DNA of 64,000 bases from the NCBI RefSeq assembly GCF_024227715.1, contig NZ_CP100448.1, forward strand, positions 1,054,001 through 1,118,000, given 5' to 3'. Position numbers and translations under genes: made by a program. The DNA is from Halomarina litorea. GTDB lineage: Archaea; Halobacteriota; Halobacteria; Halobacteriales; Haloarculaceae. How positions within the stretch are numbered: the first letter of the stretch is position 1; each line of letters opens with the position of its first letter. Positions 20,407 through 27,047 of this stretch are shown piece by piece. Below the pieces are notes generated by a model. The model was not told the DNA's origin and ran no database searches. It was given only the letters and a program-made list of their open reading frames with translations.

Positions 20407-20751
20407 TCAGGCGGCGTCGTGGTTCTCGGGGTCGTCGCGCGGGGACTCGTCGGTCGCCTCGCCGTCCCGGGTCGCCCCATAACGGTCGGCGTCCGGCCCG
20501 TCCCCGGCCACCGCCTCGAGGACGGCGCGTTCGCCGTCGTCCGCGCGGCGACGGGCCTCGTCCGCGGCCCCGTCCCAGACGGCCCGCCCGAAGGCGTCCG
20601 TCGCGACCCGCCCCACCTCGCTTGGGTTGCCCTCGTACTCCGCCTGGAGGTCCCGCGCCAGTTCGTGGTCGTCCGCCCGCCGGACGAACGCGACGAACAG
20701 GTCGCTCGCGCCGGCGTGCCGCGCGGCCGCTATCGCGTCGTCTGATACCAT
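20407..20751 (-). CDS. Conserved haloarchaeal acidic protein
   Basis: A 114-aa protein started at the ATG at 20751 (MVSDDAIAAARHAG). It is largely helical (FVAFVRRADDHELARDLQAEYEGN, GRAVWDGAADEARRRADDGERAVLEAVA) with a disordered acidic tail. A longer open frame upstream runs through the tRNA-derived repeat and is rejected. It converges with the gamma-CA gene (9-nt gap). No function is recognised. Confidence 0.7.
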   Translation of the reverse strand: MVSDDAIAAARHAGASDLFVAFVRRADDHELARDLQAEYEGNPSEVGRVATDAFGRAVWDGAADEARRRADDGERAVLEAVAGDGPDADRYGATRDGEATDESPRDDPENHDAA

Positions 20752-20804
20752 ACTCGACGGGACTCCCGCGCGTCGGATAGGGGTTGTCGTGGCACCTGCG
20801 GGGT

Positions 20805-20914
20805 GGTTCGAATCCCTCAGTGCCCGTTCATCCTGCCGCGAGCCGAACGGCGAGCGGCTGGTGAACGAACCGCTGGGATTCGAAGCAGGGAGCGACTGCA
20901 AGGAGCGACCGTGG
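20805..20914 (+). repeat. tRNA-Arg-derived repeat, copy A (inverted relative to copy B)
   Basis: Two blocks: 20805-20829, GGTTCGAATCCCTCAGTGCC plus GTTC, matches the T-arm and 3' acceptor end of the tRNA-Arg at 25634 with one change; 20876-20914 is nearly identical, in reverse complement, to 25554-25592 (one mismatch visible at the A/C in CTGATTCG/CTGCTTCG). Thus the same composite unit occurs at 20.8 and 25.5 kb in opposite orientation. It lacks a D-arm and anticodon arm, so it is not a tRNA gene. No gene is otherwise visible in 20752-21023; the last 45 nt are AT-rich promoter-like sequence. Confidence 0.8.
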
Positions 20915-21023
20915 TGTCCGGACGGGGCGTCGGGCCGGCCGCCGACACCAACTGTAACCGAGGAGTGATTCTCTATTGACAATCTCTACCATGTGACCCT
21001 CAATCTATTTACGATGTGCCAAT

Positions 21024-21932
21024 GTGAGTAGGACTAACGTGTCTCTTGGCAACCTGAACCACGACCGGGGGCCACCGGAGGGCTTGCTCGGCAACCTCCG
21101 GGGGCTCCAGCGTGCACGACAGCAGGGTGGTTGTTCGGTCGGGTGTCGGTCGCGCAGGACCGACGACGCGCGCCTCCCGTGGGAAGCGTTCGACCGGTAT
21201 GGCGGCTGGGGGGGTCACGCGTTCCACGGCACCGACCCCGGAACCGACCGGACGCCGGTCGTGTTCGTCCACGGGAACCAGCGCGACGCCTGTGACTGGG
21301 AGGAACACGCCGAGTTCTTCCTCAAGCGCAGCTACACCGGCGACGAACTGTGGGCCATCTCCTTCGACGACGGGAGTCCCACCCACCGGGCGATGGCCTC
21401 GCAACTCGACCACTTCGTCGGGAAGGTCCGCGAGCACGCGGGCGTCGAGGAGGTGTCGGTCGTCGCCCACAGCCTCGGCGTCACCGGCGTCCGCCACTGG
21501 CTCTACGACCGCGACCGGTACGACTGGGTGGACACCTTCGTCGGCCTCGCGGGGGCCAACCACGGCACCGTTCTGAGTTCGTGGTGCGCCACGGCCGGCC
21601 TCACGAGCGGGACGTACAAGATGAGCCCCTTCCTCCGAGCGGACTACGCCATCCGCGAGGACCACCCGCTCGCGAAACTCAACGAGGACGAGACGCCCGG
21701 CGACGTCGACTACTACACCATCCGGGGGAGCCACGACCCCCTGTTCTGGCGCTGCGAGCGCAGCCCCGAACTCGATGGCGCCGTCAACCTCGAACTCCCC
21801 GTCGACCACGACGGCGTCAGAACCGACCGCGAGGCCATCGAACACGTCTTCGAGTGGGTCTCGGGGACCGACCCCTACGACCTGCGCCACCACGTCGGCC
21901 TGCCGGAGTCGGCCGAGAACGCGGCGGACTGA
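21024..21932 (+). CDS. Lipase class 2-like alpha/beta hydrolase
   Basis: About 302 aa from GTG 21024 (a second GTG at 21039 is possible). The alpha/beta hydrolase core shows the oxyanion segment PVVFVHGNQRDACDWEEHAE, the nucleophile elbow VVAHSLG with Ser150, LAGANHG after it, and a C-terminal catalytic His region (EAIEHVFEWV). This pattern fits lipase class 2 / PhaZ7-like depolymerases rather than small esterases. No Sec or Tat signal is visible, so it is probably cytoplasmic, and a role on storage polymer or lipid esters is possible. First gene right of repeat copy A; an AT-rich promoter (ATCTATTTACG) precedes it. Confidence 0.82.
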   Translation: MSRTNVSLGNLNHDRGPPEGLLGNLRGLQRARQQGGCSVGCRSRRTDDARLPWEAFDRYGGWGGHAFHGTDPGTDRTPVVFVHGNQRDACDWEEHAEFFLKRSYTGDELWAISFDDGSPTHRAMASQLDHFVGKVREHAGVEEVSVVAHSLGVTGVRHWLYDRDRYDWVDTFVGLAGANHGTVLSSWCATAGLTSGTYKMSPFLRADYAIREDHPLAKLNEDETPGDVDYYTIRGSHDPLFWRCERSPELDGAVNLELPVDHDGVRTDREAIEHVFEWVSGTDPYDLRHHVGLPESAENAAD

Positions 21933-22029
21933 CGACGGGACCTCCCGTCCGACGTTCTCCCGCCCTCGCGAACGCGTGCGACACGGTGACGCGGCACGTA
22001 TATCTATCCCGGAGCGCCGAGGGAGGGTG

Positions 22030-22320
22030 ATGGCGGAGCGACCACCCGACGACGCCACCGAACCGACTCCTCACGACGCCACGCCGACAGCGCGCGCCGA
22101 CGAGCAAACCGCCGTCCACGCCTGTGCGGTCTGTGCCGTCGAACACCCGCCGAACGATCCGGCGTGTCGCTGTACCGACTGTATCTGCGAGGAGTGCAAA
22201 CCCAACGAGTGCCCCTGTTCCGGGGCCGGCGAACGGGCCCGCGACGACCACGACCGGGGCCTGTTCACCGACCCGCTCTCGCTCCTCGGCGGGTGGCGAC
22301 TCCCCGCGAGCGGCCTCTGA
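22030..22320 (+). CDS. Cys-rich zinc-binding protein
   Basis: A 96-aa protein from ATG 22030. The middle carries ten cysteines: HACAVCAVEH followed by CRCTDCICEECKPNECPC, enough for two zinc sites. The flanks are disordered and acidic, and the C-terminus (DPLSLLGGWRL) is weakly hydrophobic. A TATA-like TATATCTATCC lies ~25 nt upstream, implying an almost leaderless mRNA and supporting this start. The fold resembles small haloarchaeal zinc-finger proteins of unknown function. Confidence 0.72.
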   Translation: MAERPPDDATEPTPHDATPTARADEQTAVHACAVCAVEHPPNDPACRCTDCICEECKPNECPCSGAGERARDDHDRGLFTDPLSLLGGWRLPASGL

Positions 22321-22422
22321 ACCCGTCTTTCCCCGTCCTCGTCCTCCGTGACTGCTCCCCGACGATTCTGTCGTGTCGGCGTTTTGTCGATCGAGTGATA
22401 CTCGGTGTCACGAGTCGCAGGG

Positions 22423-22614
22423 ATGGTCCGCTGGAGGGCGGGCGAGCGCTGGGGCTGGTCGTGGGGATGCTGGTGGGGGTGTCACGATAGCGGTGTTCCA
22501 GGACCTCGAGCCGGCGGTGTCCGGCGTCGGCCTCACCCTCGGTATCGCCGTCGGCGTCGCTACCGGGTCGGTCGTCGGGGCGTACGCGGAGCGAAGAGCG
22601 TTCGTCGAGACCGG
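22423..22614 (+). pseudogene. Degraded glycine-zipper membrane protein remnant
   Basis: Three frames each hold a piece of what looks like one small membrane protein: MVRWRA from ATG 22423, then ALGLVVGMLVGV in the next frame, then TIAVFQDLEPAVSGVGL and GIAVGVATGSVVGAYAERR in a third. Gly-x3-Gly patterns are typical of glycine-zipper proteins in haloarchaea. Two frameshifts within 100 nt point to a decayed gene. The last part abuts the opposite-strand gene ending at 22615. The rest of 22321-22422 shows nothing. Confidence 0.4.
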
Positions 22615-22830
22615 TCAGTCGTGTTTCCGGACGACCTCGACCAGTCGGCAGGTGTCGTTCGCCGCGCCCGGTTTGCTCGCCTCCGCCGACCGGCGGGCGG
22701 CCTCGAGGTCGCTCGCGCGAATCTGGTCGACGTACCGGCTCGACCAGCCGGCGCTGTCGGTCACCTCGTAGACAGCGATGTACAGTTCCTGGTTCGGTGC
22801 GTCCGTCGTGCGGTGGGTCGAGTGTGCCAT
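22615..22830 (-). CDS. 71-aa conserved haloarchaeal hypothetical
   Basis: Started at ATG 22830 (MAHSTHRTTDAP). The product is a compact alpha/beta protein: QELYIAVYEVTDSAGWSSRYV, then DQIRASDLEAARRSAEASK and a final strand CRLVEVVRKH. I recognise the shape as a small haloarchaea-specific family without known function. Promoter-like AT sequence (GTATATCTG at ~22911-22919) lies further upstream. It is antisense to the decayed glycine-zipper remnant only at its very end. Confidence 0.65.
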   Translation of the reverse strand: MAHSTHRTTDAPNQELYIAVYEVTDSAGWSSRYVDQIRASDLEAARRSAEASKPGAANDTCRLVEVVRKHD

Positions 22831-23012
22831 CGGGTGGGTAGAGATGGGTGGTGGTCGGAAGCGATACGAGACTGGCACAGAGTAGTACGCGAGAGTTAGT
22901 GCGGGCTCACGTATATCTGTTGGTCGTTCGTCACTCGGCGGCTCGACCCGGACGCGGGCGAACCCGGACGTACTTGAGGGGCGAGCGGTGAGTGTCGGGG
23001 ACGCACGTGGCC

Positions 23013-23648
23013 ATGTACGACATCCCGCCGGACCTCTGGTCGACGCTCACCACCCTCGGGACGTACCTCCTGTTCGTCCTCCTCGTCGTCGTCCCCGTCT
23101 ACCTCAACCGGGCGTACCTCCCGGGCCGCCTCGCCGCCCTCGCCCGCGGGTGGCGACGCCTCACCGCCCGTGGCTGGTGGCGCGCGGGCTACGTCCCCCT
23201 CTCGCTGGTCGTCCTCTTCGCCGCCGCCGCGGGCGCACTCGTCCTCGCGGAACTGGTTCCGCTCCTCCGGTGGGGGTGGCTCGGCGCGAACATCATCGCC
23301 GCACCCCTCGCCCCGCCGGCCGACGCCGGTCGCACGCCGGGGGTGGACTGGAGCGCGCTACTCCCCCTCGCGCTCGTCCCGGTCATCGTCGCGGCCATGC
23401 TCCTGTTCAACTACGAGGAGGAGCGCCAGTATCGCGACTCCTACCGGTCGGTGGGGGTCTGGGCGGTGTTGCACCTCGTGATGGGTATCCCCCTCTTCGC
23501 CGTCATCCCCATCTTCACGGTGGGGCTGGTCTACAAGCGCATCTACGACCGTCACGGTCTCGACGCCGCCTACGCCGTCCACTTCGCGACGAACTCGGTG
23601 CTCGTGACGGTGCTGGTGGTGGGGACGGTGGTGCTGGCGACGGTGTGA
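23013..23648 (+). CDS. CPBP-family intramembrane protease-like protein
   Basis: A 211-aa membrane protein with about six spans, from ATG 23013. The C-terminal half carries the three CPBP (Abi/Rce1-like) motifs: EExxxR in NYEEERQYRD (about residue 131), a His at the end of WAVLH, and HxxxN in AVHFATNS. These residues form the glutamic-protease active site in the family, which cleaves prenylated or anchored peptides, modifies bacteriocin immunity or matures signal peptides. It is a plausible membrane partner of the neighbouring soluble aspartic protease, but no shared operon is proven (76-nt AT-rich gap). Confidence 0.78.
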   Translation: MYDIPPDLWSTLTTLGTYLLFVLLVVVPVYLNRAYLPGRLAALARGWRRLTARGWWRAGYVPLSLVVLFAAAAGALVLAELVPLLRWGWLGANIIAAPLAPPADAGRTPGVDWSALLPLALVPVIVAAMLLFNYEEERQYRDSYRSVGVWAVLHLVMGIPLFAVIPIFTVGLVYKRIYDRHGLDAAYAVHFATNSVLVTVLVVGTVVLATV

Positions 23649-23724
23649 ACGCCCCCCGAAGTCTCGTTCGAGTTCGACTATATTCACGAAACAATTAATA
23701 TCCGACACCTGCCGGAGTGGACGT

Positions 23725-24063
23725 ATGACTCCGAGCCCCATTGTGGGCCTCGTCGAACGAACCGTCTTCACCGGCACGCACTCGTCGGCGAGCGTTCTCG
23801 TGAAGTGTGACACCGGCGCCAGGCGAACGTCGCTCGACAGCGACGTGGCCCGCACCATCGGCGCAGGCGAGGGGACGAAGACGGTGCGGGTCCGCTCCAG
23901 CAACGGCGTCCAGACGCGGGCGGTCCATCCCTTCACCGTCGAACTCCGGGGACGGACACACGATGTCCTCGCGTCGGTCACCGACCGCAGCGCGATGCGC
24001 TACGACGCGATTCTCGGACGGGACGTCCTCTCGTCGTATCTGGTCGATGCTTCGCGAGCGTAG
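23725..24063 (+). CDS. RimK-associated retropepsin-like protease
   Basis: A 112-aa single-lobe aspartic-protease-fold protein. The catalytic motif is VKCDTGARRTSLD (Asp29-Thr-Gly); the C-terminal AILGRDVLSSYLVD matches the second conserved strand of the family (ILGRD). Relatives are the putative ATP-dependent zinc proteases found with RimK/LysX ligases; they work as dimers. No ATP-grasp ligase is in this window, so it is an orphan here. TTAATATCC ends 25 nt before the ATG, indicating a leaderless transcript and fixing the start. Confidence 0.85.
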   Translation: MTPSPIVGLVERTVFTGTHSSASVLVKCDTGARRTSLDSDVARTIGAGEGTKTVRVRSSNGVQTRAVHPFTVELRGRTHDVLASVTDRSAMRYDAILGRDVLSSYLVDASRA

Positions 24064-24217
24064 GCAAGTGTCGTACCGGTACGGGACTCGACACCCGCGC
24101 ACACTCCCACGGACCGCACACCCCGTCGCCAGCACTCCGCTGACGCGTGCGGCGACAGTCCCGAATCCGTGAAAACAGGCTTATCTATCGATTCGCTGTC
24201 GTGTATCTACGGAGAAA

Positions 24218-25501
24218 ATGGCGATTACTACACACATCCCCGGGATGATACCGGGAGCGACGCGCCGGAACGTCGCTCTGGGCCTCCTCGCGGTCGTCCT
24301 CTTCCCGCTCACGCTCGTCTTCGCGCTCTTCTACGTACCCACCGTCCTCGCCACGAACCGCGGCGGGGTCGGGGACGCTCTCGCGGGGTCTCCGCTCGTG
24401 CGGGTCCCGGGGATCGGCGGTCCCGGAGTGAAGACCGCCGCGGTGGCGTTCGTCTACCTGTTCGTCCTCGTCGGCGTCGTCTTCGCCGCACTCCCGTCCG
24501 ACGCCGGGTCACCGGACGCCGGACCGTCCGCCCCCGACACCGGCGCGAAGGGCGCGGTCGCGACCGCGGACGACGACACCGCATCCCCCGAACGCGAGAC
24601 GCTCACGGCCACGCCGACTGACGGTGCTGGGACGGAGGGGACGACCGGGGACGGCACGGCGACGACACCGAGCGAAGGCCCCACGACGACCGAACCGACC
24701 GAGCGACGGACCCCGCGGACGGAGACGGCGACGCCCGCGCCGACGCGGACATCGACACCGACGGAGACGGCGGCACCGACGCCCACGCCGTCGCCGACTC
24801 CCACGCCCGCCACGACGACCGAGGCACCCCGAGGGCCGAGCGAGGGGGGCGAGTGGACGGTGACGGTCACGCGCGTCGTCGACGGTGACACGCTGGAGGT
24901 CCGGTTCCCGAACGGGGAGACGGACACGCTGCGACTCCTCGGCGTCGACACTCCTGAGACGACGCTTGGCCGGGTCAGCCCCGACGAGTTCGAGGGCATC
25001 CCCGACACGACAGGCGGGCGCGACTGGCTCTACGAGTGGGGCGAGCGTGCCTCGCAGTTCGCGACGCGGGAACTCGACGGCGAACGGGTCCGAATCGCCG
25101 TCGACCCGACCGCGGACCGCCGCGGGGGCTTCGGTCGACTGCTGGTGTACGTCTACGTCGACGGCGAGAACTTCAACGCGCGACTGCTGGAGGAGGGGTA
25201 CGCTCGACTGTACGAGAGTTCCTTCTCGCAGCGTGGTCGCTTCACCGACATCGAGGCGACGGCGCAACGGCGAAACGTCGGCGTGTGGGGGTACGAGGGA
25301 CCGGATCCGACGCCGACGCCGGACCCGACACCCACGCCGGGCGACGCACCGGACCTGCCGCCCCTCCCGCCCGACGGCGACTACAACTGTGGGGACTTCG
25401 ACACCCACGAACAGGCGCAGTACGTCCTCGAACGGGACCCGAGCGACCCGCACGGACTCGACGGCGACGACGACGGCATCGCGTGCGAGTCGTTGCAGTA
25501 G
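24218..25501 (+). CDS. Membrane-anchored thermonuclease (SNase) with excalibur domain
   Basis: A 427-aa protein. Residues ~15-95 contain two membrane spans ([20 protein letters not shown] and [19 protein letters not shown]), residues ~100-205 are a Pro/Thr/Ala linker, residues ~210-345 are a staphylococcal-nuclease domain ([51 protein letters not shown]), and the C-terminus is an excalibur Ca-binding motif ([22 protein letters not shown]). A cell-surface nuclease for degrading extracellular DNA is the likely role. A TATA-like CTTATCTATC lies ~30 nt upstream. Last gene before the tRNA-derived repeat copy B. Confidence 0.9.
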
Positions 25502-25530
25502 CTTTGCACACCGACTACTCGCGACACGCA

Positions 25531-25592
25531 GAACGGGCGCTGAGGGATTCGAACCACGGTCGCTCCTTGCAGTCGCTCCCTGATTCGAATCC
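25531..25592 (-). repeat. tRNA-Arg-derived repeat, copy B
   Basis: 25531-25555 (GAACGGGCGCTGAGGGATTC plus GAACC) duplicates the 3' end of the adjacent tRNA-Arg, whose own copy is at 25631-25655 (AAACGGGCGCTGAGGGATTC plus GAACC). 25554-25592 is the extra part shared with copy A, itself containing a second GATTCGAATCC T-loop-like core. The unit lies 41 nt beyond the tRNA 3' end and looks like a partial tRNA duplication of the type left by integration or slippage. Confidence 0.82.
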
Positions 25593-25633
25593 ACAGGCAC
25601 CGTTTTTACTGCTCACCTCGTTCGCAGGAAAAC

Positions 25634-25707
25634 GGGCGCTGAGGGATTCGAACCCCCGACAAACTGGTCCGAAGCCAGTCACTCTGTCCAGGCTGAGCTA
25701 AGCGCCC
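25634..25707 (-). tRNA. tRNA-Arg (anticodon TCG)
   Basis: A 74-nt cloverleaf on the minus strand. Acceptor stem GGGCGCT pairs perfectly with AGCGCCC; the D-arm contains GCTCAGCCTGGACAGAGT; the anticodon stem ACTGG/CCAGT closes loop CTTCGGA, giving anticodon TCG (reads CGA, Arg); the T-arm is GGGGGTTCGAATCCCTC. No intron and no encoded CCA are seen. A promoter-like TTAAATC on the minus strand lies 28 nt upstream of the 5' end. The 3' end is duplicated in copies A and B nearby, marking this tRNA as a likely integration site. Confidence 0.96.
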
Positions 25708-25730
25708 TTACCACCAACGAACGGCAGGAC

Positions 25731-25740
25731 CGATTTAACT
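25731..25740 (-). promoter_or_regulatory. TATA box of tRNA-Arg
   Basis: AGTTAAATCG on the minus strand, centred 28 nt upstream of the tRNA 5' end at 25707, the expected distance for an archaeal box A directing transcription to start at the mature 5' end. Confidence 0.65.
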
Positions 25741-26087
25741 CTGTCCATCGGTTCCGTCCGGCGCAGTCCGCGTGCGTCCCACCTAGGATGAGTGAAAGCA
25801 ATAATGTGCATCCTTGGTCCGACTGCCAAGGGTTTCTCCAAGCTAAGCGGGTTCGCTGTGCCACTGGCCGTCTTGGATTTTCGCCGTTTGCTATGGGTCT
25901 CTTAATAGGCGTCCTCAGTAGCCCCCATGGTGTGGTGGATACATCGAGGCTGTGTACTGGTGCTACCAGACAAACAATAGCACACGTTCGGGGGGCGGGG
26001 TACTGGTGGTAGGCCGGTCCTCAGTAGGAACAGAGTCGCGTATCGTAGTAATAGGCGGAAATCGGTCACACGAGCTCTGTTCTGCCC
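25741..26087. other. Gene-free lower-G+C stretch between tRNA-Arg and the DUF4268 gene
   Basis: No convincing gene. Short frames exist on the plus strand from ATG 25788 but their codon use is unlike haloarchaeal genes. G+C is visibly lower than in surrounding core genes. Together with the next gene and the tRNA it has the look of the edge of an acquired segment. No terminal inverted repeats or attachment-site direct repeat matching the tRNA end were found at the far side near 27.06 kb. Confidence 0.5.
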
Positions 26088-27047
26088 TCAGGTGTCGATC
26101 TCCTGAATCCGGTCCCCGAATGCCTCATAGAACTCTTCTCCGATCTCGACCATCCACTCGATGTATTCGTCCCAGTTCTCCCTGTCGGTGATGTCACCTT
26201 GCCGGGTGAGGTAGATCTGGCTCCGCAGGTTCCCTGAACTCGTTTCCATGGGGGTGTCCCACTTGAGTCCCTCACCGACCTCGTTCTCGATGGCCTCCTG
26301 CTGGGACTTCAGCTCTCGAAACGCTTCGGCGTCGTCCGTAATCAGGAGCCTCGCACGCAGGAGGTCGTCGCTCATATCTACGACAAATGAGACTGTGAAT
26401 CCTGACCGACCGATAGAACAGTTGTATCGGTGTAGCGCCTTCGGCTTCCGAGAACCCATCGGGGTGTCCGTTTCCTTGGCCCTGTTTCGGAACTCAGTCC
26501 AGAATGCCTCTTGAAGCTGTTCCGTCTCCGTCAACGCATCCGCCGAGCGCTGCGCCTTTTCTTTCCACGTACTGGGTTCGACGACTGCGTTTAGACGAAC
26601 GGCAGGGGGCGAGTCTTCAATTTGCCATACTTCCAGCCGCAGTGCGAACAGGTCAACGGCCTCGCGGCTGTGTTCATTGAGCCACTGAACTGCATCACGG
26701 TGTTCGTCGTTGAATTGTGGGGCCAGCCAAACGATGATGTCAGCATCGACTCCTGCGGCGTACGCGATTGACTTTCCGAGGTGGTCGTGGTCCGAGGTCG
26801 TGAGTTGGTTTTCGATAACGACGTTCCGTCCGTCATCGGCAGCTTCCGCGAGGATGTCGACGCTGTACTTGCCGACGCTCTTCTCGCGTTCAATGAAGTT
26901 TAAATCCAGCCCGAGAGTCCTTTCCAGCTTGCTAGGTGCCTCTGCCTTGATCTTTTCCGCGAGCCACGGCGTGAAGTCTCTCGATTCGTGTTTCCAGTAC
27001 TCCCTCGCGTCCTGTAATTCGAGCGAGGCGAACTGTGGTTCAGCCAC
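26088..27047 (-). CDS. DUF4268 protein with nuclease-like N-terminal domain
   Basis: A 319-aa protein. The N-terminal ~150 residues resemble a PD-(D/E)xK nuclease fold: Asp64 in YSVDILAEA, then VVIENQL with Glu79 and Gln81 (ExQ in place of ExK), followed by TSDHDHLGKSIAYAAG. The C-terminal ~130 residues are DUF4268 (FWTEFRNRAKETDT, CSIGRSGFTVSFVVD, IYLTRQGDITDRENW, ending in a helix). Such proteins occur in bacterial and archaeal accessory regions, often near restriction or other defence genes. Here it is alone: no methyltransferase, helicase or other nuclease adjoins it. G+C is clearly lower than its neighbours, and it lies beside tRNA-Arg, both signs of transfer. Confidence 0.85.
   Translation of the reverse strand: MAEPQFASLELQDAREYWKHESRDFTPWLAEKIKAEAPSKLERTLGLDLNFIEREKSVGKYSVDILAEAADDGRNVVIENQLTTSDHDHLGKSIAYAAGVDADIIVWLAPQFNDEHRDAVQWLNEHSREAVDLFALRLEVWQIEDSPPAVRLNAVVEPSTWKEKAQRSADALTETEQLQEAFWTEFRNRAKETDTPMGSRKPKALHRYNCSIGRSGFTVSFVVDMSDDLLRARLLITDDAEAFRELKSQQEAIENEVGEGLKWDTPMETSSGNLRSQIYLTRQGDITDRENWDEYIEWMVEIGEEFYEAFGDRIQEIDT

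Follow-up and report, generated by a model that had tools for sequence, protein, structure and literature searches.

Mobile DNA classically inserts at the 3′ ends of tRNA genes, and a partial tRNA copy is routinely taken as a scar of integration. Two other kinds of short repeat are familiar from bacteria: repetitive extragenic palindromic sequences and bacterial interspersed mosaic elements (REP/BIME) are short intergenic hairpins of alternating orientation that vary between strains, and the attC sites of integrons are hairpin arms around a core where modules are exchanged. Within archaea, tRNA fragments have been explained via integration or via clustered regularly interspaced short palindromic repeats (CRISPR; PMC9897764), and partial tRNAs of Haloquadratum have been linked to prophages or prophage remnants (PMC3119063). 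According to PMC4986893, the tyrT operon and other tRNA operons of Escherichia coli release the RtT RNA, which affects the stringent response. Here we analyze a stretch of 64,000 nucleotides (nt) of the Halomarina litorea genome (NZ_CP100448.1, positions 1,054,001–1,118,000; hereafter the window, to which all window coordinates are relative), in which pieces of a tRNA-Arg 3′ end flank a 4.6-kb interval. We propose, with a probability of roughly 0.55, that both pieces are members of a family of hairpin repeats anchored to haloarchaeal tRNA genes, with turnover by exchange within T-arm repeats.

Two cuts of one repeating pattern at the tRNA-Arg locus

Reading away from the tRNA gene, the unit consists of the tRNA end itself (T1), a spacer (A), an inverted T-arm piece (T′), a hairpin loop (B) and a further copy of the tRNA end (T2). 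Copies of a tRNA's own end were scored over the 20 nt from the TTC in the T-loop to the discriminator base and accepted at a match of at least 16/20 within 400 nt of the gene (own-end scan), and T′-B-T2 was represented by a covariance model, R1, with matches accepted at E ≤ 0.001. The parts of the locus are:

25633–25707, minus strand: tRNA-Arg(TCG) gene (ARAGORN; Rfam RF00005, 62.1 bits)
25633–25653, minus strand: T1, the master copy, last 21 nt of tRNA-Arg(TCG) (ARAGORN, Rfam RF00005)
25594–25632, minus strand: spacer A of the right-hand array (array reading)
25609–25627, minus strand: hairpin tip CTGC-GA-AC-GAG-GT-GA-GCAG within this spacer
25584–25593, minus strand: T′ of the right-hand array, inverted copy of the tRNA T-arm (nt 54–64; also profile over 195 units)
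25554–25583, minus strand: B, conserved 30-nt loop of the hairpin (CAGGGA ... GACCG), which contains tandem GA and a GCA triloop (R1 model, covariation)
25534–25553, minus strand: T2, 20/20 copy of the tRNA-Arg 3′ end (own-end scan)
25519–25533, minus strand: broken start of a second spacer A, TTCTGCGTGTCGCGA, 15 nt (sequence comparison with relatives)
20807–20826, plus strand: T of the left fragment, 19/20 to the tRNA-Arg end (own-end scan)
20827–20873, plus strand: spacer A of the left fragment, 47 nt (comparison with relatives)
20874–20914, plus strand: T′ and B of the left fragment, T2 absent (inverted-pair and end-copy scans, R1 model)

The right-hand array, read away from the tRNA, runs T1-A-T′-B-T2 and then the broken A; the left fragment runs T-A-T′-B and stops. 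Both find counterparts directly behind the tRNA-Arg of relatives: TTCTGCGTGTCGCGA (25519–25533) is identical to the spacer start at that place in relative G006, and 20802–20915 matches the array of relative G001 at 83% over 116 nt. R1 scored 69.9 bits at 25544–25593 (minus strand), a unit included in its training set, and 38.1 bits at 20875–20920 (plus strand). A first-pass annotation of this stretch had reported copies of the tRNA-Arg end in an inverted pair, and both the copies (19/20 and 20/20 to the gene at 25633–25707) and the pair are present; the pair measures 40 nt (20876–20915 and 25553–25592, 98% complementary), with tRNA-end copies near both members, and no further tRNA-Arg end copy at ≥16/20 was found in the whole 64-kb window beyond 20807–20826, 25534–25553 and the gene itself. 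The same annotation had treated the two pieces as one composite unit in inverted orientation. Here the inverted repeat is real, but the pieces are different cuts of one repeating pattern and not a single unit flipped, and the 39-nt extra block set apart in that description is T′ plus B, most of the conserved hairpin. We read the left fragment as a displaced, inverted scrap of the tRNA-Arg array.

Units stand behind tRNA genes across one haloarchaeal order

Far from being confined to the two sites at tRNA-Arg, the 73-nt right-hand piece has counterparts at nine places in its own genome and in 42 of 59 relatives, mostly adjoining tRNA genes of many isotypes. Of the 42 tRNA genes scanned in this genome, 24 are followed within 400 nt by a copy of their own 3′ end, and none has such a copy upstream; the acceptor part of the copies agrees on average at 10.9 of 13 positions with the own tRNA versus 8.7 of 13 with other isotypes. 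Using the 30 best-scoring tRNA genes of each other genome, the corresponding counts were 13/30 downstream and 0 upstream in a member of another family (G054) and 17/30 and 0 in a member of a third (G381), while the outgroup G066 yielded 3/30 downstream, every case beside a whole duplicate tRNA gene. Furthermore, when the tRNAs of one genome were compared with each other, shared segments occurred in 163 pairs of downstream flanks and in 15 pairs of upstream flanks (three genomes).

At the level of the phylum, R1 found matches in 76 of 392 genomes, all 76 in the family or order of the window. By order, this amounts to 76/81 genomes inside, five same-order genomes being listed without a match, and 0/311 outside, where 296 genomes absent from the listing are taken as outside the order from the sort order of its kinship column. 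With no more than 15 candidates scored in each genome, the copy numbers are lower bounds. All 20 R1 regions inspected (taken from the top-listed genomes, one region each) have a same-strand tRNA in front and T copies behind. A DNA pattern scan returned at least 120 stretches, and the 80 among the matches listed carry haloarchaeal names, except for one metagenome-assembled genome named only Euryarchaeota. Together with one viral contig, these 80 stretches contained 82 pattern matches, 78 of which have a same-strand tRNA within 600 nt (two of the other four lie at the cut edge of their stretch); T2 agrees with the own tRNA at ≥16/20 in 72 of the 78 and perfectly in 48. The alternative that the first-pass annotation had itself raised, a repeat that includes part of a tRNA and resembles sequences found elsewhere in haloarchaea, is supported by own-genome, relative, phylum-wide and DNA-pattern matches.

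Carriage by viruses or plasmids was considered and rejected. No match to the units was found in phage and plasmid collections, and among viral contigs the strict pattern gave none and the loose pattern one. The sole unit of that contig (L218, 13744–13908) lies behind a tRNA-Glu near one locus end, with virus-like open reading frames (ORFs) elsewhere in the contig, and is probably host DNA beside a provirus.

A shared hairpin between arms tailored to the adjoining tRNA

The T copies span nt 53–73 of the local tRNA with sharp limits: over 54 copies, identity is 0.94 at the first of these positions (nt 53) and 0.93 at the last (nt 73), falls to 0.59, 0.69 and 0.54 immediately past nt 73 and then to 0.35–0.50, and is mostly below 0.5 upstream of nt 52. 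T′ was profiled in 195 units from 287 distinct flanks, a sample biased towards units because many loci were fetched via a unit match. Compared to other tRNAs, it complements its own tRNA across nt 54–64, with z > 8 at positions 57, 59 and 62–64 and z 6.5 at position 60; positions 54–56, 58 and 61 are nearly invariant and hence uninformative. Against nt 65–72 T′ is at chance level, apart from which a weaker, unexplained signal (z 5.2) appears at nt 73. The acceptor sequence of T2 cannot pair with T′ and is therefore kept by something besides the hairpin.

B is a structured hairpin common to the units, with strongly covarying stems. Across 25 aligned units, two-sided changes were counted in 19 cells of the T′:T2 stem and a short inner stem; shuffles gave 5.5, and none of 500 reached the observed count. 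With the pattern CAG[AG]GA...GACCG, 131 distinct loops were collected; Watson-Crick pairing holds at the first inner pair in 96% of them (76% when shuffled) and at the second in 94% (41% when shuffled), the latter as CG in 68, TA in 37 and GC in 17 loops. A GA/GA tandem mismatch flanks these inner pairs. A kink-turn in B was judged by eye and rejected: the tandem GA is present, and there is no three-base bulge. The tip motif was found 179 times on the tRNA sense strand and 50 times on the antisense strand downstream of tRNAs, and 26 and 5 times, respectively, in upstream regions, counts that depend on a motif of our own definition and do not by themselves separate DNA from RNA; a GNA triloop closes 112 of the 179 sense-strand motifs. 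The three matches on one strand and none on the other across the whole window are too few for any general claim.

Whole units are gained and lost, and modules assort independently

In one genus (g24), 51 of 52 genomes have a tRNA-Lys(TTT) gene without a single difference over 74 nt, and behind it we decoded the arrays of the 30 genomes for which loci were returned, clustering modules greedily at 0.72; one array had no recognized unit, and some segments were left undivided. Behind identical genes, all four combinations A1-B1, A1-B2, A2-B1 and A2-B2 occur, and A and B have therefore been reassorted at T′. G271 carries four perfect 111-bp units in tandem. Gain and loss concern whole units, as seen between genomes with ~91–92% identical upstream DNA: L367 has an extra A3-B2-T ahead of the A1 module that stands first in L347, L348 and L362, and L358 has two additional units relative to L360. 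Overall, orthologous or identical tRNAs are followed by none to six units. As a separate observation, L347, L348, L362 and L363 contain a further module type, CCACGCTCGCTTCGCTCGCGTGGATCCC plus acceptor, in which the purine loop lies on the opposite strand and the copied tRNA sequence is limited to the acceptor part.

The two kinds of module differ in their reach. Among 195 first units, B clusters with at least two members include several isotypes in 15 of 16 cases, as compared to 1 of 17 A clusters at the 0.78 threshold; A is not strictly bound to an isotype, as one A type (TTTTCC..GAGCAGTGAAAACG) is, by eye, common to Arg and Lys genes. Identity of the T copies drops with distance from the tRNA (18.6, then 17.5, and 17.0 of 20 for the last of several). 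The mean longest T run within 15 nt is 2.36 behind T1, 2.32 behind the first T2 and 2.28 behind the last T, close to the 2.38 of unit-less tRNAs and above the background of 1.29. Either each T copy has its own terminator or each once stood directly behind the tRNA.

A different event is seen at tRNA-Lys(CTT) of the own genome (L042, G000:C1:1575115 on), where an insertion of ~1 kb with a 150-amino-acid lipoprotein-like ORF parts the gene from its array. The displaced part restarts at about tRNA nt 61, so that nt 61–73 are duplicated; in six of seven relatives the array lies directly behind tRNA-Lys(CTT).

A model of array turnover and its main competitor

The anatomy, spread and turnover of the arrays, in which the pattern T1-A-T′-B-T2(-A-T′-B-T3...) repeats behind the tRNA gene, are as described above; for their function and for the process that moves B between tRNA genes, we infer the following. 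Exchange inside the T-arm repeats, T with T and T′ with T′, would take place via unequal recombination or gene conversion. Haloarchaea are polyploid. A downstream T could in this way become the real 3′ end of the tRNA, and selection would then preserve the function of every T in recent use between the crossover point and the discriminator base, which would explain the sharp limits of the copied block. The T′ and B stems would stay complementary either because the hairpin is selected or because it is repaired on its own arm. The array may supply further stop signals to read-through transcripts, and would mainly be tolerated repeat DNA in a safe site.

Several points weigh against this model. 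No crossover has been directly observed, repeats of 20 bp are short for ordinary homologous recombination, and 18 of the 42 own-genome tRNAs fall short of the 16/20 threshold. A neutral account alone does not explain the near-universality of the arrays within one order, with none seen beyond it, and it accounts neither for the purine-rich strand coinciding mostly with the sense strand of the tRNA (179 against 50 tip motifs) nor for the arrival of B at so many tRNA genes. The T tails are equally compatible with a transcript function, and the T′ profile stems from the unit-enriched, hence biased, sample of 287 flanks.

A second explanation, which we consider less likely, is that of a working RNA trailer. 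A read-through transcript would fold as T1:T′ or T′:T2, the T-rich tail behind T2 would stop RNA polymerase, and the unit would tune tRNA maturation or free a small RNA, as reported for E. coli RtT. The covarying stems, the sense-strand bias of the tip motifs and the equal strength of the T tails behind T1 and T2 fit such a role, as does the predicted folding of the window unit, for which the RNA fold chooses T′:T2 and the DNA fold T1:T′, two mutually exclusive pairings. A tRNA-Pro of H. volcanii has two mapped 3′ ends (PMC7237163). However, none to six units behind orthologous or identical tRNAs would be odd for housekeeping control, T′ pairing shows no clear preference for wobble pairs over A-C mismatches (26 versus 18 of 1755 cells), and the retention of the T2 acceptor part, unpaired with T′, is left without explanation.

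The interval beside tRNA-Arg is a variable region

Between the two fragments, the window contains:

20916–25518, no strand: variable interval between the fragments (Pfam, synteny)
21024–21932: lipase-like gene (Pfam Lipase_2)
22030–22320: Cys-rich protein, no Pfam family
22992–23648: membrane protein (ORF at 23013 without Pfam family)
23725–24063: aspartyl-protease-like gene (Pfam gag-asp_proteas/Asp_protease_2)
24218–25501: SNase-domain protein (Pfam SNase)

The surroundings are conserved: a hexapeptide-protein gene lies on the downstream side of tRNA-Arg in five of five relatives (G001, G002, G005, G006 and G007), and UbiA, on the opposite side, and cysK are each found in four of the five. 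The distance from tRNA-Arg to this hexapeptide gene is 0.7–2.2 kb in the five relatives versus 5.2 kb in the window, in line with the earlier expectation that the interval differs between relatives (0.7–5.2 kb across six genomes). The inverted left fragment sits between the hexapeptide gene and the lipase-like gene. A DUF4268 protein (26088–27047) lies between tRNA-Arg and UbiA in the window, a gap of ~130 bp in G006, and in G003 the SNase-domain gene sits on the other side of its tRNA-Arg. G002 has a lipase-like gene at the matching place and in the matching orientation, yet zero units behind tRNA-Arg(TCG); as a side observation, units are also missing behind tRNA-Lys(CTT) in this incomplete genome, which in both respects departs from its genus mates.

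These comparisons bear on the proposal that the tRNA-derived pair marks the ends of an integrated element, inverted after integration. None of the ten ORFs examined between 19894 and 27983, within the interval or beside it, is an integrase according to Pfam, the fragments at its ends are oppositely oriented and cut differently and thus do not form the direct repeats of attachment (att) sites, the copies are array units behind many isotypes, and the lipase-like gene of G002 occurs without units. We have dropped an integration bracket as the main reading and take the fragments as pieces of tRNA-anchored repeat arrays. Simple inversion of the whole interval is likewise disfavored, because the lipase-like gene keeps its orientation relative to tRNA and hexapeptide gene in G002. 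We therefore read the 4.6-kb interval as a variable region between conserved neighbors beside a tRNA, and not as the cargo of one element.

A more general version, in which the arrays themselves are integration scars, appears improbable to us. Crossover by tyrosine integrases in the T-loop would supply the tRNA with a new end and push the previous one away, after which the elements would decay. The T stem-loop is among three known integrase targets in tRNA genes (PMC8371274), the block of nt 53–73 is the residue expected of such an event, and the ~1 kb insert behind the own-genome tRNA-Lys(CTT) duplicates nt 61–73 and pushes the array away. What speaks against it is the regular spacing near 100 nt with alternating inverted T′ and precise tandem units, the same hairpin B behind all isotypes, the ten integrase-free ORFs at the window locus, and the lack of phage or plasmid matches, the lone viral-contig match behind tRNA-Glu being read as host DNA. 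A folded recombination site, with T′-B-T2 used by a dedicated recombinase on single-stranded or cruciform DNA like integron attC, the T-loop as receiving site and larger inserts beside tRNAs as cargo, is similarly hard to favor: modules do reassort at T′ and T, an insert lies within the T block at tRNA-Lys(CTT), and GNA triloops (112/179 tips) form exceptionally stable DNA mini-hairpins according to PMC4686876, but no recombinase has so far been tied to the arrays (none was sought), there is a single clear cargo case, and ordinary recombination may suffice.

Comparison with known systems

We found no account of haloarchaeal tRNA-anchored hairpin arrays in the literature searched, a search whose reach excluded most subscription journals; a survey of REP sequences that includes archaea has, in its available text, no mention of "Halo" and one unrelated mention of "tRNA" (PMC12306157). 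In one archaeal order, most close-downstream tRNA copies appear to be systematic array units rather than scars. The arrays constitute an order-wide natural experiment, in which a fast-changing, gene-tailored repeat is attached to an invariant gene, and the question is testable in Haloferax or Halorubrum. They also call for care in annotation, as they produce false ORFs and false integration calls, and array ORFs may be annotated as proteins elsewhere; in the window, mechanical ORFs at 25036–25701 (plus strand) cross the array and give spurious peptides such as ALRDSNHGRSLQSLPDSNPQA.

Unlike REP/BIME, whose dispersal is independent of gene class, the haloarchaeal units are tied to tRNA genes (78/82 pattern matches within 600 nt behind a tRNA) and have arms copied from the adjoining gene. 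Integration-derived tRNA copies reported in archaea likewise represent partial tRNA 3′ copies (PMC9897764, PMC3119063), but lie kilobases off across an element, whereas the haloarchaeal units follow one another at ~100 nt with a conserved hairpin. In contrast to integrons, no integrase is linked to the arrays, gene cassettes are not the rule, and the arms are tRNA sequence.

RtT (Rfam RF00391; RttR/tpr locus, tyrT/tyrV) has the same layout, T-A-T′-B-T, with GA tandem and GNA loops, and its Rfam structure pairs T′ with T2, just as haloarchaeal T′ complements a tRNA-end copy. In E. coli K-12, tyrV is followed by three copies of the tRNA-Tyr 3′ end, 19 nt long and spaced 178 bp apart; in front of every copy stand an inverted T-arm piece, GGGGAAGGAT, and a structured loop with CTC-GA-GC-GCCA-GC-GA-GAG, GTTGCC-GCA-GGCAAC and CCC-GAA-GGG. 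RtT repeats are absent from E. coli SK1144. The haloarchaeal copies differ in starting at nt 53, in ending at the discriminator without CCA and in being tailored to many isotypes in one genome. Membership in RF00391 was rejected, as the covariance match stays below the gathering score everywhere tested: none of 40 haloarchaeal genomes reaches the cut-off (best E 0.028), nor does any match in window 20500–26000 or in six array loci. A 13-nt sequence, GAGCGCCAGCGAG, is common to E. coli RtT (L370, 1011–1537) and the B loops of own-genome tRNA-Leu(TAG) and tRNA-Arg(GCG), and the GA-tandem hairpin tip is also alike; this likeness could be convergence.

The haloarchaeal units are thus built like RtT, and are not established as RtT. 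It is a speculative and rather unlikely extension that tRNA-tailored hairpin arrays form a general class common to haloarchaea and enterobacteria, in which a cellular enzyme acting on folded DNA would exchange modules at T′-B-T2 and occasionally insert cargo in the T-loop, the tRNA 3′ end being rewritten from its own array and still functional. The matching layout of E. coli RtT, whose role is still vague, suggests that RtT is one case of something wider.

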